A DNA stretch of 64,000 nucleotides from Thiothrix sp. UBA5583 (GTDB taxonomy: Bacteria; Pseudomonadota; Gammaproteobacteria; Thiotrichales; Thiotrichaceae). Positions within the stretch are counted from its first letter, which is position 1; every line of letters starts with the position of its first letter. The position numbers and the translations under genes were made by a program. The notes under the pieces are model-generated. The model was not told the origin of the DNA, did not search any database, and worked only from the letters and a program-made list of their open reading frames with translations. Positions 3,887 to 46,317 of the stretch are shown in pieces. The stretch is taken from NCBI GenBank assembly GCA_002425225.1, contig DILV01000023.1, positions 62,001 to 126,000 on the forward strand, given 5' to 3'.

Positions 3887-5005
3887 ATGACGGAGCATGG
3901 GGAATGGCGCAAGGGGAGTACCACCGCAGTGGTACTGGCAGGCGGACAAGGTAGCCGCATGGGCGGGCAGGACAAAGGCTTGCTGCTGTTCCACGGGCGT
4001 CCGCTGATCGAACACGTGCTGGATGGTTTGCAAGCACAGGTCGGCAAGGTGCTGATCAGCGCCAACCGCCATGCCGATAGCTACCGGCGTTACGGCATGG
4101 TCATCGCTGACGTGGTGGAAGGCTTTCAGGGGCCACTGGCGGGTTTCGCTGCGGCCTTGCGGGTCGCCAGCACGCCTTATGTCCTCACCGTGCCGTGTGA
4201 TGCGCCCAATGTGCCACCACAACTGGCAGAGCGGCTGTTAACCGCCTTGCAAAGCGAAGGGGCGGAACTGGCGGTGGCGCACGACGGTTTCCGCCTGCAA
4301 CCTGTGTACGCGCTGTTGTCGCAATGCCTGCTGGACGATCTGCAAGCCTACCTGCAACAGGGGGGGCGCAGCCCGCATGACTGGTACAAACGCCACCGCA
4401 TGGCAGTGGTAGATTTTTCCGACTGCGCAGCCATGTTCCGCAACATGAATACCCCGGCGGACAAGCAGATGCTGGAAGGGCGCGTGCCTTTGCTGGGTTT
4501 CTGCGCCTACAGCGGCACGGGCAAGACCACTTTGCTGACCCAGGTGATCCCGCTGTTGAAGGCGGCAGGTTTGCGCATTGCGGTGGTCAAGCATACCCAC
4601 CATGTCATTGACCTCGACCAGCCGGGCAAGGACAGCTACCGGATGCGCGAAGCCGGGGCGCAACAGGTGGTGCTGGCCTCGCACCAGCGCATCATTTCCC
4701 TGCGTGAAGTCGGGCATGAGCGCCAGCGTGAAGCCTCACTGGCCGACGCCATCAGCGGCATCCTGCCGGAAAACACCGACCTGATCCTGGTGGAAGGTTT
4801 CAAGCACGAGCCGTATCCCAAGATCGAACTGCACCGCCCGAGTGTCGGCAAACCACTGATGTTTCCGACTGACGGCAATATCATCGCCATAGCCACCGAT
4901 GACCCTGCGCTGGATGTGCCGCCCCATTTGCCAAAACTGGATCTCAACCAGCCACAAACAGTGGCAGATTACATCCTCCAGCGTCTGCACGGCAAACCAA
5001 CCTAA
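3887..5005 (+). CDS. mobAB: MobA-MobB fusion (molybdenum cofactor guanylyltransferase / adaptor GTPase)
   Basis: 372 residues combining two proteins that are separate in E. coli. The N-terminal MobA half has the nucleotidyltransferase signature LAGGQGSRMGGQDKG near residues 18-32 and attaches GMP to molybdopterin. The C-terminal MobB half begins near residue 200 with the P-loop SGTGKTT (209-215) and contains VKHTHH, typical of MobB. Start ATG 3887 follows GGGAG at a reasonable distance. AOR uses a cofactor without the nucleotide, so this gene probably serves other molybdoenzymes. Its last codons overlap the first CCAACC of the tupA promoter element. Confidence 0.93.
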   Translation: MTEHGEWRKGSTTAVVLAGGQGSRMGGQDKGLLLFHGRPLIEHVLDGLQAQVGKVLISANRHADSYRRYGMVIADVVEGFQGPLAGFAAALRVASTPYVLTVPCDAPNVPPQLAERLLTALQSEGAELAVAHDGFRLQPVYALLSQCLLDDLQAYLQQGGRSPHDWYKRHRMAVVDFSDCAAMFRNMNTPADKQMLEGRVPLLGFCAYSGTGKTTLLTQVIPLLKAAGLRIAVVKHTHHVIDLDQPGKDSYRMREAGAQQVVLASHQRIISLREVGHERQREASLADAISGILPENTDLILVEGFKHEPYPKIELHRPSVGKPLMFPTDGNIIAIATDDPALDVPPHLPKLDLNQPQTVADYILQRLHGKPT

Positions 5006-5028
5006 AACCAACCTTTGGTTTTTACAGT
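4997..5028 (+). promoter_or_regulatory. CCAACC direct-repeat promoter of tupABC-moeA
   Basis: CCAACC (4997-5002), five bases, CCAACC (5008-5013), nine bases, TACAGT (5023-5028) as -10 box. No TTGACA-like -35 is visible; the repeats occupy its place. The first repeat overlaps the mobAB stop codon. A lone GGTTGG follows at 5031-5036. Transcription would start near 5035, about 34 bases before the tupA ATG. Confidence 0.7.
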
Positions 5029-5068
5029 CAGGTTGGGAATGTTGTAAGCAAGAGAGAGGAGAAGCACC

Positions 5069-5944
5069 ATGAAATCAACCCGCCTGTTCGCTGGCCTGCT
5101 GGCTGTTAGCCTGAGCCTGACGGCTTTCGCCATCCATGCCGACGACACCAAGCCACCCGCCAACAAGGTCATCAAGATGGCCACCACCACCAGCACCGAA
5201 AATTCCGGTCTGTTGCAGGACATCCTGCCCAAATTTGAAGCCAACAGCGGCTACAGCGTGCAAGTGATCGCCGTCGGTTCCGGCAAGGCGCTGAAAATGG
5301 GCGAAGACGGCGATGTGGATGTGGTGCTGTCGCACGCCCCTGCTGCCGAAAAGGAATTCGTGGAAAAAGGCTTCGGCGACAAGCGCTACCCGGTGATGTA
5401 CAACGATTTCATCATTCTGGGGCCGGAAACTGATCCGGCTGCCATCAAGGGTTCCACAACTGCCCCGGAAGCCCTTGGCAAGATTGCCGCCAAACAGGCT
5501 GTCTTCATTTCCCGTGGTGATGATTCCGGCACGCACAAGAAAGAGCTGAAACTGTGGGAAGCTGCCAGCACCCAACCGGCAGGCGAATGGTATCGTGAAG
5601 CCGGGGATGGCATGGAAAAGGTCATCCAGATGGCAGGCGAACTGTCAGCCTACACCCTGGCTGACCGGGGAACCTGGCTGTCGGCAATGGACAAATCCCC
5701 GCTGAAAATCCTGCACGAAGGTGACAAGGATCTGTTCAACCCTTACGGCATCATCGCCGTGAGCCAGAGCCGTTACGCTGACATCAACCACGCGGGTGCG
5801 CAGGCATTGATTGACTGGATGGTGTCCGCCGAAGGCCAGCAGGCCATTGGTAACTTCAAGGTGCATGACAGCGTGCTGTTTACCCCCAATGCTGACAAAG
5901 CAGACAGTAAACCTGCCGAGGCTGCCCCCGCCGCAGCCAAATAA
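5069..5944 (+). CDS. tupA: Tungstate ABC transporter, substrate-binding protein
   Basis: 291 residues with a signal peptide cleaved after about residue 24 (AIHA-DD). The mature start has the TTTSTxxSGLL motif that characterises the TupA/WtpA-like oxyanion-binding family, here TTTSTENSGLLQ. TupA captures tungstate in the periplasm for TupBC. The choice of tungstate over molybdate is a family inference, strengthened by the tungsten AOR operon 4 kb downstream. The Ala/Pro-rich C-terminal tail is unusual but harmless. The ribosome site GAGAGAGGAGA is shared with other genes carrying the CCAACC promoter. It is first in the operon tupA-tupB-tupC-moeA. Confidence 0.93.
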   Translation: MKSTRLFAGLLAVSLSLTAFAIHADDTKPPANKVIKMATTTSTENSGLLQDILPKFEANSGYSVQVIAVGSGKALKMGEDGDVDVVLSHAPAAEKEFVEKGFGDKRYPVMYNDFIILGPETDPAAIKGSTTAPEALGKIAAKQAVFISRGDDSGTHKKELKLWEAASTQPAGEWYREAGDGMEKVIQMAGELSAYTLADRGTWLSAMDKSPLKILHEGDKDLFNPYGIIAVSQSRYADINHAGAQALIDWMVSAEGQQAIGNFKVHDSVLFTPNADKADSKPAEAAPAAAK

Positions 5945-5950
5945 ACCCGC

Positions 5951-6652
5951 ATGGCAACCTTGCTGGATGCCAGCGCCGATGCCCTGACCCTGCTGTTCAG
6001 CGGGGATCAGGCGTTGTGGGAAATCGTCGGCATTTCGTTTGAAGTCTCGGCGCTGGCCTTGCTGATTGCCACGCCCCCCGCCCTGTTGCTGGCATTCGTA
6101 CTGGCGTATGGGCAATTCCCCGGCAGACGCCTGACCATTGCGCTGTTCAGTACCCTGTTGTCCGTACCCACGGTGGTGATCGGCCTGACCCTGTACCTGC
6201 TGCTGTCGCGGCAGGGGCCGCTGGGGGAATGGCGCTTGCTGTTCACCCAGACCGCGATGGTGATGGGGCAGGTGGTGCTGGCGTTTCCGATGCTGGTGTC
6301 AATCGGCCACTCGGCCTTGCAGGCGGCTGACCGGCGGGCGTGGGAAACGGCACGTACCTTGGGGGCATCACACCTGCGGGCGCTGCTGACCATTACCTAC
6401 GAAGTGCGTTTCGGCCTGCTGGCAGCGGTGTTGGCTTCGTTCGGGCGCATCATTTCGGAAGTGGGCGCGTCGATGATGCTGGGTGGCAATATCCTGCACC
6501 ATACCCGCAATATCCCCACCGCAATTGCGCTGGAAACCAGCAAGGGTGAATTCGCCCAGGGCATTGCGCTGGGCATGGTGCTGCTGGTGCTGGCTTTCAC
6601 CCTCAACGCCTTGCTGCACCACTTTCAGGGCAAAGGACACATCGGCTCATGA
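5951..6652 (+). CDS. tupB: Tungstate ABC transporter, permease
   Basis: 233 residues, strongly hydrophobic with about five to six membrane segments. The cytoplasmic EAA loop reads WETARTLGASHLRALLT. The length and this loop fit TupB, the inner-membrane permease partner of TupA. It begins six bases after the tupA stop, and its TGA overlaps the tupC ATG (ATGA), so the three genes are translated as a unit. Assignment to tungstate rests on TupA and context. Confidence 0.92.
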   Translation: MATLLDASADALTLLFSGDQALWEIVGISFEVSALALLIATPPALLLAFVLAYGQFPGRRLTIALFSTLLSVPTVVIGLTLYLLLSRQGPLGEWRLLFTQTAMVMGQVVLAFPMLVSIGHSALQAADRRAWETARTLGASHLRALLTITYEVRFGLLAAVLASFGRIISEVGASMMLGGNILHHTRNIPTAIALETSKGEFAQGIALGMVLLVLAFTLNALLHHFQGKGHIGS

Positions 6653-7347: not shown

Positions 7348-7368
7348 GCAGACCGGGAGTCACCCTGC

Positions 7369-8634: not shown

Positions 8635-9813
8635 CTATGACGACTCCCCCACCAGTTCCGCCAGCCGTTCCCGTACCCGCTCACTGCCTTGCGCCCCGTT
8701 GCACAAACTGCCGATCAGCACCTCCGGGTCACGGCAGGCAGCCACGACCTGTTCCATCACCGCTTCGATGCAGTTGCGCCATTCTTCCAGTTCCGGTGAT
8801 GCAGAGCTGGGCATGAACACGCCCCGGTACAGGTTGAGCGCCTGGTCGGCTTGTTGATCCTTGAGCAATTGCCAGAGGATGACGAAATCCGCCCAGGTGG
8901 AAACCAGCAGGCGGTAGGGGCGTGAACCGATCTGCCCATCCAGCAGGTGACGCAGGTGGGACAGTTCCGCCTTGAGGGAGGCCAGGGTCACAGGGGCATC
9001 GCCATACAGGGCAGAATGCAGCCCCGCCAGCGGCAAGCCCTGCGGGTTGAGGATCAGCAGGCAGAGGATTTCCGTCTGCCGCAGTGACAGGTGAATTTCC
9101 TGCCCGCGAAAGATCACGCGCGGAAAGCCCAGGGCGTGGATTTGCAGTTCGGCATGGCGTTGGCTGTCGGGCAAATGCCGCCGGATGGTGCGAGCCAGTT
9201 CCGTCACCGCCAGTTCCCCGAACGGGGTATGGTTGTCCCACAGGGTGGCAACGCTGAAAATGCCGAGGGTTTCGCCGGATTGCGGGTGCAATATGGGGGT
9301 GGCGTAACACACCCAGTCGTGCATGTAGCGCGAATAATGTTCCGCAGCAAACACCACCACGGTGCGGCGATGGCGCAAGGCCAGGGCAATGGCATTGGTT
9401 CCGGCGGAACGTTCATCCCAGCAACTGCCTGCCACTAAATGGACTCTGGCAGCCCGCCCGTGCATGTAAGGGTTGGCTGAAGTCCACAGAATCCGCCCTA
9501 GGCCATCTGCCATGGCGGCTACCATGGAGCCATCCGCCACGACCTGTTCCAGCGCTGCCTGTACCGGCAGGATGGCCTGCCGCAGGGGGGAAGCTTCCCA
9601 CAGTTTTTGCGGCAGGGGTTGCACTTCCAGTGGGGCAGCCGTTTTCCACGGATTGAGGTGTTGCAGGCAGCGTCGCCAGGAAGCCGCAATATCGGCGGCG
9701 AGTACACTGCCCGTGGTTGGCAAGGCTCCGCCGGTGACAAAGGTTTGCCATACCTGAGCCAAGGCTTGCTGACGTTGTTCCAGAACCTCCCGGCGGCTGG
9801 GTTGTTGCAGCAT
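8635..9813 (-). CDS. GAF-domain transcriptional regulator with OmpR/SARP-like winged helix (copy 1)
   Basis: 392 residues. The start at 9813 has a perfect upstream GGAGGGG; a longer reading frame upstream is only the antisense of aorA. Residues about 75-220 form an AcoR-type GAF sensor (SCWDERSAGTNAIALAL, then EHYSRYMHDWVCYATPI). Unlike AcoR there is no AAA+ sigma-54 domain. Instead residues about 240-320 look like an OmpR/SARP winged helix (LSLRQTEILCLLILN, SLKAELSHLRHLLDG), followed by a BTAD-like stretch (LNLYRGVFMP). A paralogue lies at 19470-20639. It is divergent from the aor operon. I infer that it senses an alcohol or aldehyde signal and binds the CCAACC direct repeats; that is not shown by sequence alone. 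Confidence 0.82.
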   Translation of the reverse strand: MLQQPSRREVLEQRQQALAQVWQTFVTGGALPTTGSVLAADIAASWRRCLQHLNPWKTAAPLEVQPLPQKLWEASPLRQAILPVQAALEQVVADGSMVAAMADGLGRILWTSANPYMHGRAARVHLVAGSCWDERSAGTNAIALALRHRRTVVVFAAEHYSRYMHDWVCYATPILHPQSGETLGIFSVATLWDNHTPFGELAVTELARTIRRHLPDSQRHAELQIHALGFPRVIFRGQEIHLSLRQTEILCLLILNPQGLPLAGLHSALYGDAPVTLASLKAELSHLRHLLDGQIGSRPYRLLVSTWADFVILWQLLKDQQADQALNLYRGVFMPSSASPELEEWRNCIEAVMEQVVAACRDPEVLIGSLCNGAQGSERVRERLAELVGESS

Positions 9814-9847: not shown

Positions 9848-9880
9848 CCTACCTTTTTACAACCTATGCTTGTGTATAGT
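9848..9880 (+). promoter_or_regulatory. Degenerate direct-repeat promoter of the aor operon
   Basis: CCTACC (9848-9853), five T, ACAACC (9859-9864), exactly ten bases, TATAGT (9875-9880) as a good -10 box. Each repeat differs from CCAACC at one position, but spacing and -10 match the other elements. Start of transcription would be near 9887; aorA starts at 9934 after AGAGGAGGAAG. Confidence 0.62.
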
Positions 9881-14152: not shown

Positions 14153-15232
14153 TTATGCAGCCAGTTTGACACTTTCCAACCGTTTCAGTGCAATTCCAAT
14201 CACACGTTGGTCAAACAGGCGAGCCTTGCGTTCCCCGCTGCCACGGCCTGCTGGCCATTCGCGCAAACCTTGCTGAATACTGGCAGTATCCGCAGAAACC
14301 TGTTCCCGAACCAGCAGCCAACCCAAGGTTGACAATAATTCCAGCCCGAATGGAGACTCGAAACCGTCAATCACTTTGGCAGTATGTTCCAGGGCAGGCA
14401 GATAGGGTTTGACGGCATCGCTTTGCAGATAGGCTTGCAGATGATTTTTGCGGGTATCGTCAAACCAAATGACATCCAGCGGGGAGGCATCACTGATACG
14501 CTTGTCACAATGCAAATAGCTGCCATCCAGCCCGTCCAGCAAGTGGCGCAAGCGGTCAGCATACGGGCCATAGATGTCTGGTTTGAAACGCAAATCCAGC
14601 GGGTTGTCACCCGGAGTGAAATGTTCGATGGCTTGTTCCAGAAACCAGGCCAGCTTCTGGATTTCCAGCAGGGTGCATTCCATACCCATGATCCAGTAGC
14701 GACGTACCAGTTCGGCAATCAATGCACGGGCAGGGGTTAGCTTTTCCACGCCTTTGCGCTTGGCTACGTTCTGGTACTTCTGGATAGGCTCATAAACCTG
14801 AATATCCACCTGCGGCAAGTTACCAAGTACATGCTCGATTTTTTCACGTACAGCAGTCCAGTCCAGGCCACCATTACCCGCGCCCAGGGGGGGGATGGCA
14901 ATGGATTGCACCTGGTTTTCGAGAATGAAATGGCGCAAATCCTGCAAACCTTCAACGATCCACTCCATTCTGGAGGGATGACGCCAGTGCCGTTTGGTTG
15001 GGAAGTTGATGATCCAGCGCGGCCCCATCAGCTCACCGGTTTCGGTGACAAACATTTTGCCGGTTTGCACCTGATGGTTCTTGCAGGCTTTCTCGTACTC
15101 AATCCGGTTTTTGTCGAACCGCTCCTTGAACATCAGGGCAATACCCTTGCCCATCACACCCATGGTGTTGACAGTATTCACCAACGCCTGCGCAGGCGCA
15201 TCCAGCAGATTGCCTTGAGTGTAGTGAATCAT
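14153..15232 (-). CDS. darG: DarG-type macrodomain antitoxin (DNA ADP-ribosyl glycohydrolase)
   Basis: 359 residues. The N-terminal 155 residues are a macrodomain ([19 protein letters not shown], then [14 protein letters not shown] and [12 protein letters not shown]). DarG removes the ADP-ribose that DarT places on thymidine in DNA, and its C-terminal part binds DarT directly. Length and domain order match DarG. The ATG at 15232 overlaps the darT stop as ATGA, so the pair is translationally coupled. The two genes follow moeB with a 7-bp gap and are probably co-transcribed with it. Confidence 0.93.
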
Positions 15233-15885
15233 TGAAAGTACCAACCTGGACGAACGTATACCTTTAAATTCAGACCGCGTGCCGACACCTCACGGTCTAT
15301 TCTCTCTTTCATCTGCTCATTATAGCAAATGACACCTAAAAGGCTGCTGACTGGGCATGTCTGGTAGACAAGTGCTTCCGCCTGATAACGGTCAAGTTTC
15401 CACGGATCATCAGGGTCACGGCGGAAATCACGCCGTTGCAACAGTGGCCAGTCAATTTTATTCAAGTCATTGAGACTATTGTAAAATGTGGTTAATGTCG
15501 AATAAGCATGGCTATCGGTAAATAAAAAAGGCAGACCCGCCGAGTGGATCTGGTGCAGGCTCGATACCAGAAAGATGATTTCTTCATTACTGCGTTTCTG
15601 GATGCCAGCCCAACCGGAGTGGATATTCTTCAGCATGACCGAGAAGGGGGTGAAGTAAAATGGCACATAATCGTTCAGTGTTCCACCCGGTGCTAATGGT
15701 ACAGGGTGCATTGCCCGCTTGCTAATCAACTCAGTATTACCGATGTTGACCCAACGGTCTGAGCGTACTTTGCAGTTACCACAATGCAATCCGTTGTCCA
15801 GAATCCACCACAGGTTGTCACAATGGACAATTCGCCAGATCAGGGCTTTTTCCGGGTTAAGACTCTGGTAGTCACCTGCTGACAT
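15229..15885 (-). CDS. darT: DarT-type DNA ADP-ribosyltransferase toxin
   Basis: 218 residues. DarT uses NAD+ to ADP-ribosylate thymidine in single-stranded DNA, blocking replication. The family pattern is visible: [14 protein letters not shown] near the start, NIGN at 47-50, [11 protein letters not shown] at 75-85, and the QAEALV segment with the probable catalytic Glu170. The start at 15885 follows GAGGTAATC; a longer frame upstream is only the overlap with moeB. darG follows with an ATGA overlap. It appears intact, so the pair is likely functional. Confidence 0.92.
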
Positions 15886-15892
15886 GATTACC

Positions 15893-16654
15893 TCACAAAC
15901 AATGTCTGTCGATAGAACCACACACCGGGCAGTGCGGATCACGCGGCAATTTAAACCCCATCCACTCCATCGCCTGCCCATCAAACAGCAGCACCCGCCC
16001 GGTCAGGGTTTCACCGTTCCCCACCAGCAGCTTGATCACTTCCAGCGCCTGCATACTGCCGAGGATGCCGAGTAGCGGGCCGACCACGCCGTTTTCGCTA
16101 CAGGTTTGCGCAATCCCGCCAACCTTGCCGTAGAAGCAGTGGTAACAGGGGTTGTCACCCAGCCATGGCTGGAACACACTGATTTGCCCTTCCCAGCGGA
16201 TTGCCGCCGCAGACACCAGCGGCTTGCGGGCAGCCACTGCAACCCGGTTGATCAGCAGGCGTGAATCGAGGTTGTCGGTGCAATCCACCACCACATCGGC
16301 CTGCTGCATCTGTGCCAGCAGGGCGGCTTCATCCAGTTTGGCGGGGATGGTTGCGACGGTAATTTCCGGGTTGAGGCGGTGCAGGGTTTCGGCAGCGGAA
16401 GCCACCTTGGGCTGACCGACCTTGGGGGTGTCATGGACAATCTGGCGTTGCAGGTTGGTCAAGTCCACCACATCCGGGTCGCACAGCACCAGCTTGCCGA
16501 TACCGCTGCTGGCAAGGTACATGGCAACGGGCGAACCCAGCCCGCCCACACCGAGTATCAGCACCGTGGCGGCACTGAGCCTGGCCTGCCCGTCAATATC
16601 AATCTGCGGCAGCATGATCTGGCGGCTGTAGCGCAGGAGTTGGTCATCATTCAT
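15893..16654 (-). CDS. moeB: MoeB/HesA/ThiF-family adenylyltransferase
   Basis: 253 residues of the E1-like family that adenylates the C-terminal Gly of sulfur carriers. Visible: the SRQ motif (RYSRQIMLP), the ATP loop LGVGGLGSP near residue 37, DxxD (CDPDVVDLTNLQRQ), and two zinc-type CxxC pairs (CYHCF and CPVC). The start at 16654 has CGGAGAA upstream. Its natural partner here is the MoaD-like protein of the aor operon. darT and darG follow on the same strand. A reverse-type repeat promoter lies just upstream. Confidence 0.9.
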   Translation of the reverse strand: MNDDQLLRYSRQIMLPQIDIDGQARLSAATVLILGVGGLGSPVAMYLASSGIGKLVLCDPDVVDLTNLQRQIVHDTPKVGQPKVASAAETLHRLNPEITVATIPAKLDEAALLAQMQQADVVVDCTDNLDSRLLINRVAVAARKPLVSAAAIRWEGQISVFQPWLGDNPCYHCFYGKVGGIAQTCSENGVVGPLLGILGSMQALEVIKLLVGNGETLTGRVLLFDGQAMEWMGFKLPRDPHCPVCGSIDRHCL

Positions 16655-16679: not shown

Positions 16680-16725
16680 AGCATAACGGAAGTGGCGGAT
16701 GGCCTGCGCCAACTTTTTTCCAACC
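16680..16725 (-). promoter_or_regulatory. Reverse-orientation repeat promoter of moeB-darT-darG
   Basis: Read on the minus strand: GGTTGG (16725-16720), five A, AGTTGG (16714-16709), 23 bases, TATGCT (16685-16680), with moeB starting 25 bases later. The 23-base spacing equals that in front of the genes at 39090 and 42177. The same repeats also fit a forward promoter on the plus strand. Confidence 0.5.
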
Positions 16726-16740
16726 TTTGCGGCTTACAGT
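16709..16740 (+). promoter_or_regulatory. CCAACC direct-repeat promoter, distal copy for aldehyde dehydrogenase
   Basis: CCAACT (16709-16714), five T, CCAACC (16720-16725), nine bases, TACAGT (16735-16740). The -10 hexamer and spacing are identical to those of tupA. Transcription would start near 16747. Confidence 0.6.
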
Positions 16741-16768: not shown

Positions 16769-16800
16769 CCAACCTTTCCCCAACCTTTTTGCCTTATGTT
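16769..16800 (+). promoter_or_regulatory. CCAACC direct-repeat promoter, proximal copy for aldehyde dehydrogenase
   Basis: CCAACC (16769-16774), five bases, CCAACC (16780-16785), nine bases, TATGTT (16795-16800). It starts 60 bp after the distal copy. The leader to the ATG at 16871 is about 64 bases and ends in GAGAGAGGAGACAAC. Confidence 0.68.
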
Positions 16801-16870: not shown

Positions 16871-18391
16871 ATGCAATACGCAAACCCGAATACTGAAGGC
16901 GCAGTCATCAATTTCAAAGAGCGCTACGGCAACTTCATTGGCGGTGAGTGGAAAGAGCCGGTCAAAGGCGAATACTTCGACAATATTTCCCCGGTCAATG
17001 GCAAGCCATTCTGCCAAATTCCACGCTCCAGTGCCGAAGACATTGAACTGGCACTGGATGCCGCCCACGCCGCCAAGGATGCCTGGGCTGCCACGTCTGT
17101 GACCGCACGTTCCAACATCCTGCTGAAAATCGCTGACCGCATCGAAGCCAATCTGGAAATGCTGGCGGTCGCTGAAACCTGGGACAACGGCAAAGCCGTG
17201 CGCGAAACCCTAAATGCTGACGTGCCACTGTCTGCTGACCACTTCCGCTATTTCGCAGGCTGTGTGCGGGCGCAAGAAGGCACTATCGGTGAAATCGATG
17301 CCAACACCGTGGCTTACCACTTCCACGAACCGCTGGGTGTGGTTGGTCAGATCATCCCGTGGAACTTCCCGCTGCTGATGGCGGCGTGGAAACTCGCCCC
17401 GGCACTGGCGGCAGGCAACTGCATCGTGTTGAAACCGGCGGAACAAACCCCTGTTTCCATTCTGGTGCTGGCTGAACTGATCCAGGATCTGCTGCCACCG
17501 GGCGTGCTTAACATCGTCAACGGCTTCGGCGTGGAAGCGGGCAAGGCACTGGCCACCAGCACCCGCATCGCCAAGATCGCCTTCACCGGTTCCACTCCGG
17601 TCGGTTCCCTGATCATGAAATACGCTGCTGACAACATCATCCCGTCTACCGTGGAACTGGGCGGCAAATCCCCCAACATCTACTTCGCTGATGTGATGGA
17701 TCAGGAAGATGCCTTTGTCAGCAAAGCGGTCGAAGGTGCAGTACTGGCGTTCTTCAACCAGGGTGAAGTCTGTACCTGCCCATCCCGCTTGCTGGTACAG
17801 GAATCCATCTACGAAAAATTCATCGGCATGGTGATTGAGCGTGCGGCGATGATCAAGCGCGGCAATCCGCTGGATACCGAGGTGATGGTCGGTGCACAGG
17901 CTTCCCAGGAGCAATACGACAAAATCCTCAGCTACATCCAGATCGGCAAGGAAGAAGGCGCGGAAGTCATCACCGGCGGTGAATCCGAACAACTGGGGGG
18001 CGACTACTGCGATGGCTACTACATCCAGCCGACCCTGCTGAAAGGCACCAACAACATGCGCGTATTCCAGGAAGAAATCTTCGGGCCGGTGGTGTCGGTT
18101 GCCACGTTCAAGGACGAAGCGGAAGCGCTGGCGATTGCCAATGACACCGAATTCGGCCTGGGTGCTGGCGTGTGGACGCGCGACATGAACCGTTCCTACC
18201 GCATGGGCCGTGGCATTCAGGCAGGCCGGGTGTGGACTAACTGCTACCACCTGTACCCGGCGCACGCAGCCTTCGGTGGCTACAAGAAGTCTGGCGTAGG
18301 CCGTGAAACCCACAAGATGATGCTCGACCACTACCAGCAAACCAAAAACCTGCTGGTCAGCTACGACATCAATCCGTTGGGCTTCTTCTAA
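16871..18391 (+). CDS. NAD-dependent aldehyde dehydrogenase (ExaC/AcoD-like)
   Basis: 506 residues, the length of acetaldehyde dehydrogenases that accompany quinoprotein ethanol dehydrogenases. Catalytic residues are in place: Cys301 in GEVCTCPS (an adjacent C303 is typical of this subgroup) and Glu262 in VELGGKSPN. The NAD-binding [12 protein letters not shown] and FTGSTPVGS are also present. It converts aldehydes to acids in the cytoplasm and complements the tungsten AOR. Two repeat promoters precede it and a hairpin terminator follows, so it is probably monocistronic. Confidence 0.95.
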
Positions 18392-18457: not shown

Positions 18458-19477
18458 ATGCGGCGTTTATCTGAACTCAGATTTCAACAACTGTTCCATA
18501 CGCTGGGCAGCGAATTTTACACCCCTCACTTGCCGCAAGGCTTGCAGCAGGCTCAATGGGTGCGCACCAATTCCAGTGTTGCCGCCATGCTTGAGCTTGA
18601 TCCTGCCGAATTTGCTACCGATCCATGCCTGCAAGTTTTCAGTGGCAATCGCTTGTTGCCCGGAATGCAGCCTCTCGCCCAAGCCTACGCAGGGCATCAA
18701 TTCGGCAAATTCAATCCGTTTCTGGGTGATGGGCGCAGCGTATTGTTAGGGGAAATCACCAGCAATACGGGTACATGGGATATTGTCCTGAAAGGTGTGG
18801 GCAGAACCCCCTATGCCCGTCGTGCAGATGGACGTGCCGGGCTGGATGAATGCCTGCATGAATACCACCTCAGCGAACAACTGGCAGCATCAGGCGTACC
18901 AACCAGCCGCGTGTTGTGCATCATTTCCGGCAAACCGCTGGTATATCGGCATGGCGGCTTCCAGCCTGCGGCGATCCTCACTCGCGTTGCCCCAAGCCAT
19001 ATCCGCTTTGGCACATTTGAATACCATTATTTTCGCCGTGATCATGCTGCCTTACGCCAACTGGCTGACCATGTAATAGCCCGCCACTACCCGGAATGCG
19101 CAGGCACGGATGAAGCACGCCATGCCCGCCTGTTTCAGGCTATCGTCCTGAAAACAGCGCAACTGATTGCCTGCTGGCAAGCCGTGGGGTTTACGCATGG
19201 GGTGATGAATACCGACAACCAGTCGATTGCTGGCATTACGCTGGATTTGGGCGAAAGCAGTTTTAACCCGGAACACGACCCGAATTACATCGGCAACCGC
19301 GAAGATGAAAAGGGTCTCCATGCTTTCGGGCAACAACCCATAGTCGGGCTATGGAACTGTAACGCACTGGCTCGCGCCCTGTCGCCACTGGTGTCAGCGC
19401 AGGATTTGCGGGAAGCCTTGCTGCAATACGAAACGGCGTATTTACAGCACTACGCACAATTGGGCGGTATCACGTAG
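18458..19477 (+). CDS. selO: SelO/YdiU-family protein adenylyltransferase, C-terminally truncated
   Basis: 339 residues; complete homologues have about 480. SelO is a pseudokinase-fold enzyme that AMPylates proteins in redox stress. Conserved parts are LAQAYAGHQFGKFNPFLGDGR, GVGRTPYARRADGRAGLDE and HGVMNTDNQSIAGITLDLG, which hold the nucleotide- and metal-binding residues. The protein stops after YLQHYAQLGGIT, where others continue for about 140 residues. The stop overlaps the 3' end of the convergent regulator gene by eight bases, so the tail may have been lost when that gene arrived. It could be a remnant or a short active form. Its start ATG follows TAGGTGGCGTC. Confidence 0.85.
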   Translation: MRRLSELRFQQLFHTLGSEFYTPHLPQGLQQAQWVRTNSSVAAMLELDPAEFATDPCLQVFSGNRLLPGMQPLAQAYAGHQFGKFNPFLGDGRSVLLGEITSNTGTWDIVLKGVGRTPYARRADGRAGLDECLHEYHLSEQLAASGVPTSRVLCIISGKPLVYRHGGFQPAAILTRVAPSHIRFGTFEYHYFRRDHAALRQLADHVIARHYPECAGTDEARHARLFQAIVLKTAQLIACWQAVGFTHGVMNTDNQSIAGITLDLGESSFNPEHDPNYIGNREDEKGLHAFGQQPIVGLWNCNALARALSPLVSAQDLREALLQYETAYLQHYAQLGGIT

Positions 19478-20639
19478 TCATCAGCTCCGCCAGACGCTCC
19501 CTCACCAGTTCACTGCCGGATGTGCTATGACACAGTTTTTCCATCAGCACGTGTGGATCCTGACACGATTCCAGCGCCCTCCCCATCACGGCATCAATGC
19601 AATGCCGCCATTCTTCCAGCTCTGGTGATACCGATTGCGGCAGGAAGGAACCACGGTACAGGGAAAATGCCGTAGTCCCCTGCTGCCGACGCAGCGCTTG
19701 CCACACCTGAATAAAATCAGCCCACACCGGCATCTGCAAGCGGTAAGGGCGCGAACCGATCTTGCCATCCAGCAGGCGGCGCAGGTGGGAAAGTTCCGCT
19801 TTCAGGGTGGTGGTGGAAACCGGCAGGTCGCCGTACAGGGCTGCGTGGAAACCTTCCAGCGTCAGCCCTTGCGGGTTCAACGCCAGCAGGCAGAGAATTT
19901 CAACCTGACGCATCGGCAGATTCAGGGGTTTGCCCCGGAACAGGATACGGGGCTGGCCAAGAGCGTGAATTTCCAGTTCCGCACGTGGCAGGTTTTGTGG
20001 CAGGCAACGCCCGATGGCACGAGCCAGTTCGGTAACGGCAGCCTGACCCAGCGGCGTATGGCGGTTCCAGGTAGTGGACATGTCCAGAACCCCAACCACT
20101 TCGCCAGACTGCGGATGGGTAATCGGGGCTGCATAACACACCCAGTCGTGTACAAACGGCATGTAATGCTCTGAGGAAAACACCGTCACAGAACGGCGCA
20201 GCTTGAGTGCCAGCCCGACCGCATTGGTGCCTACCGAAGCTTCATCCCAACGCCCTCCGGCAGTGAAATGCACGGATTCGGCACGGCTACGCATGTGGCG
20301 GCTGGAAAAAGTCCACAGCAGACGGCCTTGCGGGTCGGCAATCGCTGCAACCAGTTCACCTTCACTGGCAAGCTGCATCATCTGTTCCTGCTCGCGCTGG
20401 GCTGCCAGGCACAACTGGGACTCCTTCCAGCGATGCAGGGTGGAATATTCATCATCCAGTGGCGCATAGACCTGGCGGGGCGGGATATGCTGGGCACTAC
20501 GCTGCCACGACGACATGATGTCTTCACGGATACTGTTGCTTTTCGCAAACGGGCTACCTGTTACAAACCGGTTCCATTGCGACTCTATGGCGTTGCGGCG
20601 TTGCGATAAATTGCCAACTGTCAGATTCACTTGCTCCAT
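19470..20639 (-). CDS. GAF-domain transcriptional regulator with OmpR/SARP-like winged helix (copy 2)
   Basis: 389 residues, clearly paralogous to the regulator at 8635-9813 along the whole length. The N-terminal helical region (about 1-85) is followed by an AcoR-like GAF domain (GRWDEASVGTNAVGLALK, EHYMPFVHDWVCYAAPI). The winged helix spans about 230-310 (LPMRQVEILCLLALN, TLKAELSHLRRLLDG, IGSRPYRL), and a BTAD-like tail has FSLYRGSFLP. There is no sigma-54 ATPase domain. The start at 20639 has GGAGGAGG upstream. It sits between the aldehyde dehydrogenase and the porin/pqq genes, all with CCAACC repeats, and is the other candidate activator. The two copies may respond to different inducers. 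Confidence 0.82.
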   Translation of the reverse strand: MEQVNLTVGNLSQRRNAIESQWNRFVTGSPFAKSNSIREDIMSSWQRSAQHIPPRQVYAPLDDEYSTLHRWKESQLCLAAQREQEQMMQLASEGELVAAIADPQGRLLWTFSSRHMRSRAESVHFTAGGRWDEASVGTNAVGLALKLRRSVTVFSSEHYMPFVHDWVCYAAPITHPQSGEVVGVLDMSTTWNRHTPLGQAAVTELARAIGRCLPQNLPRAELEIHALGQPRILFRGKPLNLPMRQVEILCLLALNPQGLTLEGFHAALYGDLPVSTTTLKAELSHLRRLLDGKIGSRPYRLQMPVWADFIQVWQALRRQQGTTAFSLYRGSFLPQSVSPELEEWRHCIDAVMGRALESCQDPHVLMEKLCHSTSGSELVRERLAELMTT

Positions 20640-20692: not shown

Positions 20693-20725
20693 CCAACCTT
20701 TTCCCAACCTTTAGCGTATTACTAT
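20693..20725 (+). promoter_or_regulatory. CCAACC direct-repeat element between regulator 2 and the porin
   Basis: CCAACC (20693-20698), five bases, CCAACC (20704-20709), ten bases, TACTAT (20720-20725). It points to the right, away from the regulator gene 54 bp to its left, and would give a leader of about 370 bases before the porin, or a separate RNA. No reverse-type -10 box for the regulator is evident. Confidence 0.55.
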
Positions 20726-20759: not shown

Positions 20760-20978
20760 CGTTACAAGACTAGCACGCAAATCCAAACATGAAAAGAGAA
20801 ATAAAACAAAATTTTCATATAAATTTAAAAATTAATACAACAAGTCACCATGTAAATCTTCGCTTTGCTCGCCTGGATAAATAAACTCATCATTTTGATT
20901 TAAATATACATTTACAATAAATCCAAATAAAAATTAATTACAATGAAATTCAAATAAATAAGAATAAAAATCATAAAA
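20760..20978 (+). other. AT-rich, A-tract-containing non-coding stretch
   Basis: Part of the 465-bp gap between regulator 2 and the porin. About 220 bp are markedly rich in A and T, unlike the GC-rich surroundings, with many runs of A4-A5 and T3-T4. I see no gene. It ends exactly at the four-repeat promoter of the porin, so it may act as a curved or UP-like upstream region. Confidence 0.6.
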
Positions 20979-21033
20979 CCAACGTTTTTCCAACCTTTCA
21001 ACAACCTTTAACCAACCTGACAAACCCTAGCAT
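20979..21033 (+). promoter_or_regulatory. Four-repeat promoter of the porin gene
   Basis: Four repeats at a strict 11-bp period: CCAACG (20979), CCAACC (20990), ACAACC (21001), CCAACC (21012), then ten bases and TAGCAT (21028-21033) as -10. It is the only element with two full repeat pairs in line. Transcription would start near 21040. Confidence 0.7.
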
Positions 21034-22454: not shown

Positions 22455-22487
22455 CCAACCTTTAGCCAACCTCTGTTGCCGTATTCT
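22455..22487 (+). promoter_or_regulatory. CCAACC direct-repeat promoter of pqqAB
   Basis: CCAACC (22455-22460), TTTAG, CCAACC (22466-22471), ten bases, TATTCT (22482-22487). Predicted start near 22494, 33 bases before pqqA. Confidence 0.72.
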
Positions 22488-23546: not shown

Positions 23547-23566
23547 GGCGACAGCAGCCTCGTAAC

Positions 23567-23599
23567 CAACCTTTCGCCAACCCAGCGCCCACCATACTG
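23567..23599 (+). promoter_or_regulatory. CCAACC direct-repeat promoter of pqqCDE
   Basis: CCAACC (23567-23572), TTTCG, CCAACC (23578-23583), ten bases, CATACT (23594-23599) as -10; a shifted reading TACTGT (23596-23601) is also possible. It starts 21 bp after the pqqB stop, so pqqCDE can be transcribed apart from pqqAB. Confidence 0.68.
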
Positions 23600-30164: not shown

Positions 30165-30197
30165 CCAACCTTTTTCCAACCTGCTCTTAGTTAAGCT
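30165..30197 (+). promoter_or_regulatory. CCAACC direct-repeat promoter of the PQQ alcohol dehydrogenase operon
   Basis: CCAACC (30165-30170), five T, CCAACC (30176-30181), ten bases, TAAGCT (30192-30197). Start near 30204, an 80-base leader to the ATG at 30284. Confidence 0.75.
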
Positions 30198-30283: not shown

Positions 30284-32041
30284 ATGAAACAAGAGCATTC
30301 ATTCCGTCAATTCGTGCTGGCGCTGGCAGTCGGTACTGCCCTGAGTGCCACCACGGCATCCGCTGCCATCACCGACCAGGACATTGCCGATGATGCCAAA
30401 ACCACGGCTGATGTGGTCAGCTACGGCCTGGGCCTGCAAGGCCAGCGGTTCAGCCCGCTGGACAAACTCAACACCGATACCGTGAAAAACCTCACCCCAG
30501 CCTATGTGCTGTCTTACGGGGATGAAAAGCAGCGCGGTCAGGAAGCCCAGCCACTGGTGGCCAACGGCAAGATTTTCACTACCGCATCCTATTCGCGGGT
30601 GTTCGCGGTCGATGCCAAGACCGGCGAAGAGTTGTGGCAATACGACCACCGCCTGCCAGAAGGCATCATGCCGTGCTGTGACGTGGTAAACCGGGGCGGG
30701 GCGCTGTACGACAACCTGTTCATTTTCGCCACCCTCGACGCGCAACTGGTTGCCCTTGATCAGGAAACCGGCAAAGTGGTGTGGAAAGAAAAAATGGAAG
30801 ACTTCAAGGCTGGTTATTCCAACACCGCCGCGCCAATCGTGGTCAAAGGCAAGGTCATTACCGGCGTTTCCGGCGGTGAATTCGGTATCGTCGGCAAGGT
30901 CGAAGCCCGCGACGCCAAGACCGGCAAACTGGTGTGGTCACGCCCAACGGTGGAAGGTCACATGGGGACGCTGGATGGTAAAGACAACGGCATTACCGGT
31001 GAAACCAACAAATCCTGGCCGGGTGACTTGTGGAAAACCGGCGGGGCAGCCACATGGTTAGGCGGTACTTACGACGCGGAAACCGATTCCCTGTTCTTTG
31101 GGACAGGCAACCCCTCACCCTGGAACTCACACCTGCGCCCAGGTGACAACTTGTATTCATCTTCCGTACTGGCAATCAACCCCGATGACGGCAAAATTAA
31201 GTGGCACTACCAGTGGACACCGCACGACGGCTGGGACTTCGATGGTGTCAACGAATTCATTCCATTTGACCTGAAGAAAGAAGATGGCACAGTCATCAAA
31301 GCCGGTGGTCATGCTGACCGTAACGGCTTCTTCTATGTACTGGATCGCACCAATGGCAAGTTGATCAATGCCACGCCTTTCGTCAACCAGATTACCTGGG
31401 CAAAAGGCATTGACCTGAAAACCGGTCGCCCGGAATACATTGACGACAACCGCCCCGGCAAACCCGGCGAGGGAGCTGACAAAGGCACCTCGGTATTCTC
31501 CGCGCCCTCCTTCTTAGGCGGTAAAAACTGGATGCCAATGGCGTACAACCCGAACACTGAATTGTTCTACGTACCAGCCAACGAATGGGGCATGGACATC
31601 TGGAACGAGCCGATCAGCTACAAAAAAGGCGCGGCTTACTTGGGGGCGGGTTTCACCATCAAGCCATTGAACGAAGATTACATCGGCGCATTGCGTGCGG
31701 TTGACCCGAAAACCGGCAAGATCGTCTGGGAAGCCAAAAACAAAGCGCCGTTGTGGGGTGGTGTACTCACGACCGCAGGCAACCTGGTGTTCACCGGCAC
31801 ACCGGAAGGCTACCTCAAGGCGTTTGATGCCAAAACCGGGGCAGAACTGTGGAAGTTCCAGACCGGTTCTGGTGTGGTCGGCATCCCAGTGACATGGGAA
31901 CAAGACGGTGAACAGTTTGTTGCCGTACCGTCCGGCTGGGGCGGTGCAGTGCCGTTGTGGGGTGGTGAAGTGGCGAAGAGTGTCAAGCACCTCAATCAGG
32001 GTGGCAGCCTGTGGGTATTCAAACTGCCGAAAACATCCTAA
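30284..32041 (+). CDS. pedH: PQQ-dependent alcohol dehydrogenase, lanthanide type (PedH/ExaA-like)
   Basis: 585 residues with a signal peptide (cleavage near ASA-AI). It oxidises alcohols to aldehydes in the periplasm. The sequence follows ExaA/PedE quinoprotein ethanol dehydrogenases closely: [14 protein letters not shown], the vicinal disulfide C131-C132 in PCCDVVNRG, and [17 protein letters not shown] near the end. In WDFDGVNE the catalytic D318 is followed two residues later by D320. Calcium enzymes have Ser or Ala there; the extra Asp marks lanthanide-dependent enzymes such as PedH, ExaF and XoxF. Lanthanide use is therefore a residue-based inference. ATG 30284 follows GGAGAGGAGA. Confidence 0.93.
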
Positions 32042-38974: not shown

Positions 38975-39007
38975 AACCTAACCCAATCAGGGTTGGCAGA
39001 AGGTTGG
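38975..39007 (-). promoter_or_regulatory. CCAACC direct-repeat promoter of the beta-propeller operon
   Basis: On the minus strand: CCAACC (39007-39002), five bases, CCAACC (38996-38991), ten bases, TAGGTT (38980-38975). The gene starts 39 bases further at 38935, after GAGGAGGACCTC. Confidence 0.68.
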
Positions 39008-39018
39008 TGACTTGCCAG

Positions 39019-39064
39019 GGTTGGTAAAAGGTTGGTAGCCAGCCCCCCCCGTTTGCTGTATCAA
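39019..39064 (+). promoter_or_regulatory. Reverse-orientation repeat promoter of the ABC-2 permease
   Basis: GGTTGG (39019-39024), TAAAA, GGTTGG (39030-39035), 23 bases, TATCAA (39059-39064). Spacing and -10 hexamer are identical to those at 42098-42143. The neighbouring pair 38991/39002 serves the divergent gene. Confidence 0.55.
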
Positions 39065-39896: not shown

Positions 39897-39905
39897 CAAC
39901 AGATA

Positions 39906-41206: not shown

Positions 41207-41281
41207 ATCCGATTTGTGCATACCTCACTGTTCAGGCTATCATGCCTCATGCTATCTACACATTTGTAGAGGATTGGATTC

Positions 41282-42087: not shown

Positions 42088-42097
42088 CCGCCCCACA

Positions 42098-42143: not shown

Positions 42144-42176
42144 CAAGCTATTCATGTCATCGGGGAGGAGGACATC

Positions 42177-43924: not shown

Positions 43925-44700
43925 GTTTCCTCACGGTTTATATAACGGACAAGACTTATACCAATGGGGTGCAGGCCATCCGTGACCTGCACTTTCAGGT
44001 GGCGAAGGGTGAATTCGTGGCGCTGGTTGCACCTTCCGGGGCAGGCAAGAGCACCCTGCTCAACCTGCTGGCAGGGCTAGATACCGATTTTCAGGGCAAG
44101 CTGGCGTTTCCCGCAGATGCCAGCCTCAGTTTCATGTTTCAGGAACCGCGCCTGTTGCCGTGGCTGACGGTGGAAGACAATATCCGTCTGGTTCTGGATG
44201 CGCCTGCCCGCCACACCGACCTGACCCGCTTTGCCCGCATGGACTTGCTGTTGCAGCAACTGGGTTTGCAGGATTTCCGCCAACTTTACCCCAACCAGTT
44301 ATCTGGCGGGATGAAACGCCGGGCGGCTCTGGTACGAGCTTTTGTTACCCGTCCGGCGGTGTTGCTGATGGACGAGCCGTTCCAGTCGCTGGATGAACCC
44401 ACCGCGCAAGGCTTGCGCCAGTTGCTGTTGCAATTGTGGGCGGAACATCACCCTACGGTGCTGTTTGTTACCCACAGCCTCAATGAAGCGCTATTGCTGG
44501 CTGACCGCATCCTGTTCCTGTCGGCTCGCCCGGCGCAGGTGGTGCTGGATTACACCGTGCCGTTACCACGCCCGCGCCCGCAACAACTGAGCGAGTTGCA
44601 GGCATTACAGACGGAATTGCTGCAACGTTTCCCGCAGTTGCTATCCGGCAGTGGCGTCAGCTCCCAACCTTTTGCCAACCCAGCGGCCCCTAAGCTGTAA
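43921..44700 (+). CDS. NitT/TauT-type ABC transporter, ATP-binding protein
   Basis: 259 residues. Walker A is APSGAGKST (Ala replaces the usual Gly), signature LSGGMKRRAALVRA, Walker B VLLMDEPFQSLD and switch VTHSLNEA. It belongs with the SsuB/TauB-like ATPases. Codons near its 3' end (SQPFANP) carry the CCAACC repeats of the following cytochrome promoter, so regulator binding lies inside this coding sequence. Confidence 0.9.
   Translation: MSFLTVYITDKTYTNGVQAIRDLHFQVAKGEFVALVAPSGAGKSTLLNLLAGLDTDFQGKLAFPADASLSFMFQEPRLLPWLTVEDNIRLVLDAPARHTDLTRFARMDLLLQQLGLQDFRQLYPNQLSGGMKRRAALVRAFVTRPAVLLMDEPFQSLDEPTAQGLRQLLLQLWAEHHPTVLFVTHSLNEALLLADRILFLSARPAQVVLDYTVPLPRPRPQQLSELQALQTELLQRFPQLLSGSGVSSQPFANPAAPKL
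44664..44696 (+). promoter_or_regulatory. CCAACC direct-repeat promoter of the diheme cytochrome gene
   Basis: CCAACC (44664-44669), TTTTG, CCAACC (44675-44680), ten bases, TAAGCT (44691-44696). The -10 hexamer equals that of the alcohol dehydrogenase promoter. It lies within the end of the ATPase gene. Confidence 0.7.
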
Positions 44701-44738
44701 GGCAATTTTCAGATAACCGGTGTTACGGGAGAATTGTG

Positions 44739-45407: not shown

Positions 45408-45436
45408 CCAGCCAACCCTGCCAACTGGAAAACCCT

Positions 45437-46201
45437 ATGCCTGATGAAACGGTCTTAAGCGTCACTTCGGTCAGTAAACACTACGGCAAACTGTGTGCCG
45501 TCAATCAGGTCAGTTTCCAGCTTGGCAGCGGCTTTTATGCCCTGCTGGGGCCGAACGGGGCGGGCAAATCCACCCTGTTCCAGCTTCTCACCGGCCTGTT
45601 TGCGCCCGATCAGGGCGATATTCACCTCAATGGCGTCAGTATCCGCCAACATCTGCCGCAAGCACTGGCACAGATGGGGGTGGTGTTCCAGCAACCGGCG
45701 TTGGATCTGGATTTGAGCGTACAGGCCAATCTGGATTTTTACGGGCGGCTGCATGGGATGGGCAAAGCTGCCATCCGTACCCGCAGCGCGGCGGTGCTTA
45801 CCCAACTGGAATTGACGGCGGTTGCCCAGCAAGCCTGCCGTAGCCTCAGCGGGGGCAACCGCCGCAAGGTGGAACTGGCTCGCGCCCTGCTCACCGAACC
45901 CCGTTTGCTGCTGATGGATGAGGCCACCGTCGGGCTTGACCCGGCTTCCCGCGCCACCTTGCTGGCTTACGTGCATCGCTTGTGTCAGGAACAGCAGTTG
46001 TGCGTGCTGTGGGCGACCCACCTGATTGATGAGGCCGAACAAGCGGCGCAAGTACTGGTGTTGCACAAGGGCAAGCTACTGGCACAGGATACGCCTGCCA
46101 CGCTGAGGCAGCAGACGGGTACGGCTTCATTGCTGGAGGCATTTTTCCAGTTGTCCGGCGAAGCAGCCGTAGACTCACCACCCACCTCCCCAAGCCTGTA
46201 A
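45437..46201 (+). CDS. ABC transporter ATP-binding protein of the PQQ alcohol dehydrogenase system
   Basis: 254 residues. Walker A is GPNGAGKST, signature LSGGNRRKVELARA, Walker B LLLMDEATVGLD and the switch ATHLIDEA. The length and the sequence type fit ATPases that pair with ABC-2 permeases; the likely partner is at 39090-39896. The ATG at 45437 lacks a strong ribosome site (GGAAAACCCT), so coupling to the cytochrome gene is possible. A hairpin follows, but its T run lies on the other strand. Confidence 0.87.
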   Translation: MPDETVLSVTSVSKHYGKLCAVNQVSFQLGSGFYALLGPNGAGKSTLFQLLTGLFAPDQGDIHLNGVSIRQHLPQALAQMGVVFQQPALDLDLSVQANLDFYGRLHGMGKAAIRTRSAAVLTQLELTAVAQQACRSLSGGNRRKVELARALLTEPRLLLMDEATVGLDPASRATLLAYVHRLCQEQQLCVLWATHLIDEAEQAAQVLVLHKGKLLAQDTPATLRQQTGTASLLEAFFQLSGEAAVDSPPTSPSL

Positions 46202-46202
46202 A

Positions 46203-46228
46203 AAAATAGACCGGGATATTTCCCGGTC
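46203..46228 (-). terminator. Minus-strand intrinsic terminator of the candidate small RNA
   Basis: GACCGGGA / TCCCGGTC, an 8-bp stem with a four-base loop (46228-46209), followed on the minus strand by TATTTTTT. In the plus direction only TT follows, so it works mainly leftward. Confidence 0.75.
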
Positions 46229-46279
46229 TTAAACAGCTCACGAGAGAGCTTGGAGGATGTACGGTGCATGACTTACATG
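46203..46279 (-). ncRNA. Candidate regulon small RNA
   Basis: A repeat promoter on the minus strand (46286-46317) and a minus-strand intrinsic terminator (46228-46203) bracket about 77 bases with no minus-strand gene. The predicted RNA has a short GCAUG/CAUGC hairpin at the 5' end, an unpaired CCUCC, AGCUC/GAGCU pairing around UCUCGU, and the terminal GACCGGGA hairpin. CCUCC and CUCUCUC are complementary to the purine ribosome sites (GAGAGGAGA) shared by regulon genes; CUCUCUC can form seven contiguous pairs with the tupA and aldehyde dehydrogenase leaders. Transcription is not proven. Confidence 0.45.
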
Positions 46280-46285
46280 CTGCCT

Positions 46286-46317
46286 ATTGTAAACACTTGG
46301 GGTTGGAGAAAGGTTGG
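46286..46317 (-). promoter_or_regulatory. CCAACC direct-repeat promoter of the candidate small RNA
   Basis: On the minus strand: CCAACC (46317-46312), TTTCT, CCAACC (46306-46301), nine bases, TACAAT (46291-46286), the best -10 box of the set. Start near 46279. The repeats overlap the ribosome site of the divergent peptidase gene, which they could therefore also affect. Confidence 0.6.

Follow-up and report, generated by a model that had tools for sequence, protein, structure and literature searches.

Introduction

At PhoB/PhoP-type promoters, direct repeats with an 11-bp period stand in the place of the -35 element. SARP promoters likewise carry direct repeats, with a period of 11 or 22 bp and the 3' repeat 8 bp from the -10 element; the SARP activator AfsR docks sigma region 4 at its box, and a SARP is defined by an N-terminal SARP domain with any extra domains C-terminal (PMC10936776, from the part of the article available to us). 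For alcohol oxidation, the best-described control is that of the Pseudomonas ped cluster, which is under the LuxR-type AgmR and PedS2/PedR2 (PMC12997753, again from the accessible part). Here, we analyzed a 64,000-nt stretch of DNA from Thiothrix sp. UBA5583 (contig DILV01000023.1, positions 62,001 to 126,000; hereafter the window), in which a direct-repeat box, CCAACC-N5-CCAACC, recurs before genes of alcohol and aldehyde oxidation. The box is very probably the operator of RegA, a one-component protein predicted to consist of a GAF sensor and a SARP-type winged helix, for which we infer binding, activation of these genes and ligand. A description of the motif, or of a GAF-SARP aldehyde regulator, was not found among the matches listed in a search of titles and abstract beginnings in the open-licence literature.

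Results

A direct-repeat box takes the place of the -35 element

A preliminary description of the window had listed 12 box sites, and all of them were found again in the sequence. Nine are exact (4997, 16769, 20693, 22455, 23566, formerly given as 23567, 30165, 44664 and, on the minus strand, 39007 and 46317), two are imperfect, with 11 (16709) and 10 (9848) of 12 positions matching, and one (20979-21017) is an array of four repeats, two of them imperfect. A tenth exact box, absent from that list, lies at 39035(-), 28 bp behind the 39007 box, and further unlisted 11/12 matches fall at 14307 (within a macro-domain gene), 42114(-) and 44280. With up to two mismatches allowed, the window holds 30 matches versus 11.3 ± 3.6 in shuffled sequence, and 0 of 100 shuffles reached 30. 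The whole 3.55-Mb genome contains 12 exact boxes, ten of them in the 64-kb window and two in the other 3.49 Mb, both of which sit within open reading frames. The promoters and principal genes are as follows.

4997..5028, plus strand: box with -10 TACAGT before tupA (tungstate uptake), overlapping the last 9 bp of mobAB
9848..9880, plus strand: divergent box CCTACC-N5-ACAACC with -10 TATAGT, between regB and the aldehyde oxidoreductase (AOR) ferredoxin gene (9934)
16709..16740, plus strand: upstream exaC box (11/12) with -10 TACAGT
16769..16800, plus strand: exaC box with -10 TATGTT
20693..20725, plus strand: box with -10 TACTAT, pointing away from regA and some 54 nt upstream of its start
20979..21033, plus strand: array of four 11-bp repeats with -10 TAGCAT, before a porin gene
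22455..22487, plus strand: box with -10 TATTCT before pqqA (22527)
23566..23598, plus strand: box with -10 CATACT before pqqC
30165..30197, plus strand: box with -10 TAAGCT before the pyrroloquinoline quinone (PQQ) alcohol dehydrogenase gene
38975..39035, minus strand: two boxes 28 bp apart (39035, 39007) with -10 TAGGTT after the second, before a PedA2-like beta-propeller gene
44664..44696, plus strand: box with -10 TAAGCT before a cytochrome c gene
46286..46317, minus strand: box with -10 TACAAT before a candidate small RNA
16871..18391, plus strand: exaC, acetaldehyde dehydrogenase (NF050026 above cut-off), the core target
30284..32041, plus strand: PQQ-dependent alcohol dehydrogenase (PQQ-ADH) with a D-F-D motif and adjacent cysteines
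19470..20639, minus strand: RegA, GAF (DhaR-N-like) sensor with AfsR/SARP-type winged helix, proposed box reader
8635..9813, minus strand: RegB, a RegA paralogue about 54% identical to it, divergent from the AOR operon

The box had been said to be followed by TAnnnT 9 or 10 nt past the second hexamer, which holds at 11 of the 12 listed sites, including 9848 with TATAGT, but not at 23566, where CATACT lies 10 nt and TACTGT 12 nt after the box. Nine of the ten exact window boxes have a plausible -10 at 9 or 10 nt, the exception being 39035(-). The absence of a -35 element was borne out, the best TTGACA match with a 15-19 bp spacer being at most 3/6 at all 12 listed sites; the box itself occupies the -35 position. 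At 39035(-), TTGACA is matched at 4/6, yet the -10 is poor, and 42114(-) and 44280 have none; these three matches were left out of the promoter count for want of a good -10. Across 131 distinct CCWACC sites, which include close relatives and hence are not independent, TAnnnT followed 7-11 nt past the box at 74/101 proteobacterial and 26/30 actinobacterial sites, nearly always at 9 or 10 nt, against 10.8 and 0.5, respectively, with shuffled tails. The proposed resemblance to a Pho box stands as far as direct repeats replace the -35 region, but a SARP box, with 11-bp repeats and a short fixed distance to the -10, is the closer match. The geometry fits SARP promoters, the best mechanistic match known to us.

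The box and RegA homologues occur together

Among 57 genomes, CCAACCTTTNNCCAACC was present in 16 (this genome included); those 16, and no others, are the genomes with a RegA orthologue at 73% identity or above. Two species of the same genus, G004 and G006, have neither CCAACCTTTNNCCAACC nor a close RegA, the homologue in G006 being just 47% identical. The 57 genomes are mostly of one genus, and we therefore searched more widely, with profile A1 against GTDB species genomes, obtaining 79 loci from the best 80 of 192 relatives. They span Thiothrix, Thiolinea, Thiomicrorhabdus, Thiohalocapsa, Granulosicoccus, Zetaproteobacteria and Methyloversatilis, among others, as well as the actinomycetes Janibacter, Knoellia, Nocardioides and Actinomadura.

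Of these 79 loci, 68 contain one or more boxes that match at 11 or 12 of the 12 positions. An exaC gene near the RegA homologue carried such a box in 37/40 cases, 26 of the CCAACC type and 11 of the exact CCTACC type (scoring required 100 bp or more upstream, and genes at less than 61% identity or with a late start in the query, as at L118 and L120, were excluded). In G003 (L104), an exact box lies in a 20-kb stretch without a window homologue and has no evident -10. Eleven Nocardioides-type loci lack exaC, and there the box precedes what by eye appears to be a molybdenum hydroxylase operon; in L170 this operon has Pfam 2Fe-2S, molybdopterin and FAD subunits, and its nearest NCBIfam models, glyceraldehyde dehydrogenase and aerobic CO dehydrogenase, both score below cut-off.

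CCAACC-N5-CCAACC is its own reversal, which makes a backward-motif control uninformative; letter order and gap were varied instead across the 79 loci. At gap 5, CCAACC was found in 47/79 loci, the next of the 15 letter orders, CCCAAC, in 7 (probably in part the same sites shifted) and the others in 0-3. Other gaps (0-4, 6-11 and 16) gave at most 3 loci each, so gap 5 is preferred.

Genomes with and without RegA differ at exaC. Within the family, exaC has a box at 11/12 or better in all 15 relatives whose RegA is 73% identical or more (one box of CCTACC type) and in 0/5 relatives without RegA (best score 9); degenerate exaC boxes, scoring 9 and 10, occur in two Leucothrix-type genomes, where the homologue is 53-54% identical. 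Three family members that lack a close RegA also lack a box before their PQQ-ADH genes. In a sample drawn class-wide, a 12/12 box preceded exaC in 3/3 cases with upstream sequence (one CCTACC) from genomes with RegA, as opposed to 0/15 exaC genes in 14 genomes without RegA (best scores 7-9). RegA itself (E up to 1e-40) was found in 5/274 of these genomes and a box plus TAnnnT in 9/274, three being shared.

RegA is predicted to combine a GAF sensor with a SARP-type DNA-binding part

RegA has 389 residues, with a Pfam GAF match just below cut-off and a trace of Trans_reg_C. A model from an alignment with 43 relatives reached a pLDDT of 90.2 (35.9 from the single sequence). In this predicted model, residues 37-216 match DhaR-N (Z 25.8, 17% identity), residues 217-360 align to AfsR in the transcription complexes 8k60 and 8hvr (Z 15.4 and 15.0, 2.4-2.5 Å over 140-144 residues), and the DNA-binding part matches EmbR with Z 13.9; the best fold match of that part is an activator within an initiation complex, AfsR. 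Helices are predicted between residues 308 and 388, and the AfsR alignment stops at residue 360. Across the 44 family members, Trans_reg_C is matched in 41 at E<=0.1 and BTAD in two (best E 0.018). Because the SARP-type domain is C-terminal, after the GAF part, and not N-terminal, we refer to RegA as SARP-like and not as a SARP. Pfam searches returned neither an AAA+ sigma-54 domain nor a receiver domain (Response_reg) in RegA or among the seven families matched by the 44 members, and no GerE/LuxR helix-turn-helix in RegA. On this contig, RegA and RegB are the sole Trans_reg_C matches (E up to 10).

A comparison of proteins with CCAACC (26) and CCTACC (5) boxes revealed just two cleanly differing positions, 325 and 342, and since both fall outside the predicted recognition helix (276-289), we claim no specificity code.

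The site at 20693, previously left unassigned, is a real box and can now be placed some 54 nt from the start of regA, the likely regulator beside it. A box of this kind adjoins regA in 7 of 12 relatives examined (one at 11/12), and it may serve autoregulation or a transcript towards the porin gene. About 65-80 nt past it (20760-20810), a short block, roughly ACTATCATGTAAA...TTAAAAG, stands out from more variable flanking sequence by its partial conservation across eight aligned Thiothrix-type genomes, and is perhaps part of a small transcript.

The regulon appears to center on aldehyde oxidation

Gene identities were taken from Pfam and NCBIfam searches, and that of pqqA from its sequence. The gene calls agree with the proposal that boxes precede genes of tungstate uptake, AOR, aldehyde dehydrogenase, porin, PQQ synthesis, alcohol dehydrogenase and electron transfer, except that the AOR box, at 9848 before an AOR ferredoxin-AOR-FAD operon, is divergent. 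The tupA product matches NF041772 below cut-off, the PQQ-ADH is a methanol/ethanol-family dehydrogenase (TIGR03075), the beta-propeller gene is PQQ-associated (TIGR03866) and the cytochrome is c-type. The D-F-D motif and adjacent cysteines of the PQQ-ADH are what we take to be the signature of lanthanide-type, PedH-kind enzymes.

In 40 stretches from relatives, scored for a box at 11/12 or better within 220 bp upstream, boxes were found before exaC (12/14; two misses, the two Leucothrix-type genomes scoring 9 and 10 as above), porin (5/5), pqqA (9/9), pqqC (8/8), PQQ-ADH (10/10), beta-propeller (5/5) and cytochrome c (4/4) genes. They were found before none of the genes designated SBP3 (0/6), PeriBP (0/7), ABC2m (0/6), NMT1 (0/5), ABCtran2 (0/6), selO (0/10), proAP (0/6) or pqqE (0/8) in the same stretches; pqqB scored 7/8 solely through the pqqA box, and mobAB and moeA, with one usable locus each, 0/1.

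Six RegA relatives without PQQ-ADH (E up to 1e-100) retain the exaC box (G001, G002, G003, G010, G011 and G013), and in G001, G002, G010 and G011 it is the genome's only exact TTT-type box. On this basis, the core of the regulon looks like aldehyde oxidation, to which PQQ genes were added. The two loci L080 and L085 have a box before a Pyr_redox_2 oxidoreductase gene (checked in L085), which may encode a type-II NADH dehydrogenase and to which NCBIfam assigns no name at E up to 1e-60.

The preliminary description had grouped these promoters into a PQQ/lanthanide plus tungsten regulon. A shared activator-type promoter on quinoprotein and aldehyde genes is upheld, with less support for tungsten: the box of the AOR operon, next to RegB, has diverged, and an exact tupA box was seen here only among the few loci compared. 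In the relatives L078, L085 and L100, the AOR box reads YCWACC-N5-RCAACC and matches 10, 11 and 10 of 12 positions, like 9848, with 1/3 reaching 11/12. At the loci that could be compared with the exact tupA box of this genome, scores were 8/12 for the one usable family locus (L097 has no upstream sequence) and 7-10/12 for six Methyloversatilis-type loci. The Methyloversatilis-type loci L153, L154, L157, L158, L159 and L166 have TupABC-like transporter genes about 1-4 kb from regA/exaC, echoing the tungsten link.

Behind the 46317(-) box, inspection by eye suggests a transcript of about 70 nt ending in a hairpin and T-run near 46205. This candidate small RNA had no relative in the loci searched, where, beyond the window copy, the box alone matched; the window has no Rfam match at the gathering score and no tRNA. 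By eye, CCUCC and CUCUCUC in the candidate (46205-46290, minus strand) could face the GAGAGGAG leaders of the regulon.

A short gene for SelO (protein adenylyltransferase; 18458-19477) is also found alongside exaC or regA in many gammaproteobacterial loci. A DarT-type DNA ADP-ribosyltransferase and a macro-domain protein, a DarTG-like toxin-antitoxin pair, are encoded between the AOR operon and exaC (14153-15984, minus strand). At 50913-55058, a protein of 1381 residues, which matches outer-membrane multihaem cytochromes (MtrC/F) below threshold, adjoins a possible beta-barrel protein, the two perhaps forming an extracellular electron conduit.

RegA homologues and boxes in other phyla

RegA homologues (E up to 1e-30) were found in 45 plasmid records, seven of which were scanned for boxes. 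In Acinetobacter schindleri, a box with TATGTT precedes exaC (NF050026 above cut-off), divergent from a homologue 42% identical to RegA and near an iron-type alcohol dehydrogenase. The arrangement is the same in an A. baumannii record, and both records have an additional CCTACC tandem without a -10. Deinococcus aetherius has two boxes: the first, which no TAnnnT follows at 8-11 nt, separates the homologue from a transporter gene, and the second, with TAGACT, precedes a Rieske/PQQ-dehydrogenase stretch. In Mycolicibacterium chubuense NBB4, a box with TAACGT precedes a gene annotated as methane monooxygenase, and an 11/12 site precedes sigC. On Mycolicibacterium/Mycobacterium plasmids (L241, L242), RegA homologues occur in clusters with methane-monooxygenase-like genes and the sigma factor gene sigC, the L242 cluster also containing an N,N-dimethyl-4-nitrosoaniline (NDMA)-dependent methanol dehydrogenase.

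Discussion

Together, these data suggest how RegA may act. Most likely, two RegA protomers would bind as neighbors, covering both 11-bp repeats where the -35 element is missing, and like AfsR would retain sigma region 4 and RNA polymerase at a TAnnnT -10 that stands alone. The GAF domain probably senses the inducer, an aldehyde, an alcohol or a related metabolite. In Thiothrix, the circuit would turn on a chain from alcohol to acid, comprising the porin, PQQ synthesis, the quinoprotein alcohol dehydrogenase, its cytochrome, the PedA2-like gene and ExaC, and RegB with its drifted box probably serves the tungsten AOR likewise.

Several observations weigh against RegA as the reader of the box. 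The 16 co-occurring genomes are mostly of one genus and are not 16 independent events, and the 79 named loci are unevenly spread across taxa. Distant homologues (25-54% identity) are found in five genomes without the exact box (G006, G018, G021, G026 and G043). Eleven of the 79 loci lack an 11/12 box, a few of the other 68 hold one only away from a recognised target (e.g., L120 and L187), and 3/40 exaC genes have none (L145, L147 and L148). Class-wide, six genomes have one box-plus-(-10) match each and no RegA, by our estimate about the number expected by chance, and 2/5 RegA genomes lack such a match; one of these (G179) has a 12/12 exaC box with a different -10, and in the other (G105) exaC is cut by the contig end. 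No fitting box was found in 3/7 scanned plasmid records (Mycobacterium dioxanotrophicus, Streptomyces NBC_01324 and Rhodococcus USK13; L242, L243 and L244). As for the protein, RegA itself lies below the curated Pfam cut-off for Trans_reg_C, and the SARP BTA domain is aligned only in part.

A different reader, namely a two-component AgmR/ErbR or PedR2 (LuxR) type regulator with RegA merely nearby, is suggested by the control of nearly the same genes in Pseudomonas outlined above, and this genome holds ten matches to LuxR-type domains. None of the ten is on this contig, however, and the box tracks RegA homologues in several phyla, including at loci where no window homologue besides exaC and regA (and selO) was found, while exaC lacks the box in genomes without RegA; we consider such a reader improbable. 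RegA might instead bind the box and repress, with another factor driving the promoters. The box some 54 nt from regA and pointing away from it could block regA transcription, but at the regulon promoters the -35 position is taken up by the box and a good -35 is lacking, so a protein at this fixed distance would be expected to recruit polymerase, and the DNA-binding part has its best fold match in AfsR, an activator seen within an initiation complex. Repression therefore strikes us as no more probable than a LuxR-type reader.

The third possibility, marginally less likely again, is an OmpR/PhoB-type response-regulator site, a Pho-box analogue read by an unlinked OmpR-family regulator. PhoB/PhoP-type promoters share the 11-bp repeats replacing the -35, and the genome has 11 Trans_reg_C matches above the Pfam cut-off, but all 11 are on other contigs, and the RegA domain is of the same winged-helix class, so that the geometry gives this possibility no preference. 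Finally, that the repeats are an ancestral exaC promoter sequence copied along with genes and served by no dedicated regulator would agree with exaC being the most widespread box carrier, but is very hard to reconcile with box-free exaC in genomes without RegA and with boxes at unrelated genes (Thiothrix PQQ-ADH, the Deinococcus PQQ-dehydrogenase stretch, the Nocardioides xanthine-oxidase-family molybdenum enzyme operon and the Mycolicibacterium monooxygenase gene).

With RegA preferred as reader and activator, we lean, with reservations, towards a broader proposal. RegA would belong to an ancient one-component family of GAF and SARP-type domains that has kept the half-site CCAACC across Pseudomonadota, Actinomycetota and Deinococcota, and that controls whichever alcohol and aldehyde oxidation enzymes the host possesses (NAD-, PQQ/lanthanide-, molybdenum- and tungsten-dependent enzymes and hydrocarbon monooxygenases) by SARP-style sigma adaptation outside actinomycetes. 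Paralogues and boxes would co-diverge, to CCTACC in Methyloversatilis and second Thiothrix copies and to YCWACC-N5-RCAACC for RegB/AOR.

A regulator, an operator and a mechanism are thereby proposed for PQQ, lanthanide, tungsten and acetaldehyde oxidation genes, whose best-described control, in Pseudomonas, uses unrelated regulators. The box has enough specificity for predicting alcohol and aldehyde genes from sequence in several phyla, and the RegA-box pair could act as a portable aldehyde or alcohol sensor. If the proposal is true, SARP-type activation, best known from antibiotic control, extends to Gram-negative primary metabolism.

Comparison with known systems

The Pho box and PhoB share with this system direct repeats in the -35 position, but RegA lacks a receiver domain and the box sequence differs. 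With the AcoR-like DhaR, RegA has in common residues 37-216, which match DhaR-N; unlike DhaR, it has no sigma-54 AAA+ domain that we could find, its C-terminal part is SARP-type and its promoters look sigma-70-like. The likeness to the SARPs AfsR and EmbR comprises the predicted fold of RegA residues 217-360, the 11-bp direct repeats, the short fixed distance from the 3' repeat to the -10 and the lack of a good -35. In contrast to SARPs, the sensor of RegA is N-terminal and of GAF type, the BTA part is short, the half-site is CCAACC, and the association is with carbon oxidation instead of antibiotics.

In gene content, the closest system is Pseudomonas ped/exa, which, in the part of PMC12997753 available to us, shares with the Thiothrix locus a porin, PQQ-ADH, cytochrome c, SoxYZ-like carrier, metallohydrolase, rhodanese, PedA2-like beta-propeller, ABC transporter and ExaC/PedI. 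The regulators described there are LuxR-type or two-component, AgmR(ErbR) and PedS2/PedR2, whereas we propose a one-component GAF-SARP-like protein acting at one uniform box. Since nearly the same genes as in the ped cluster are here assigned to another, proposed regulator, the Thiothrix circuit looks like a non-homologous rewiring.

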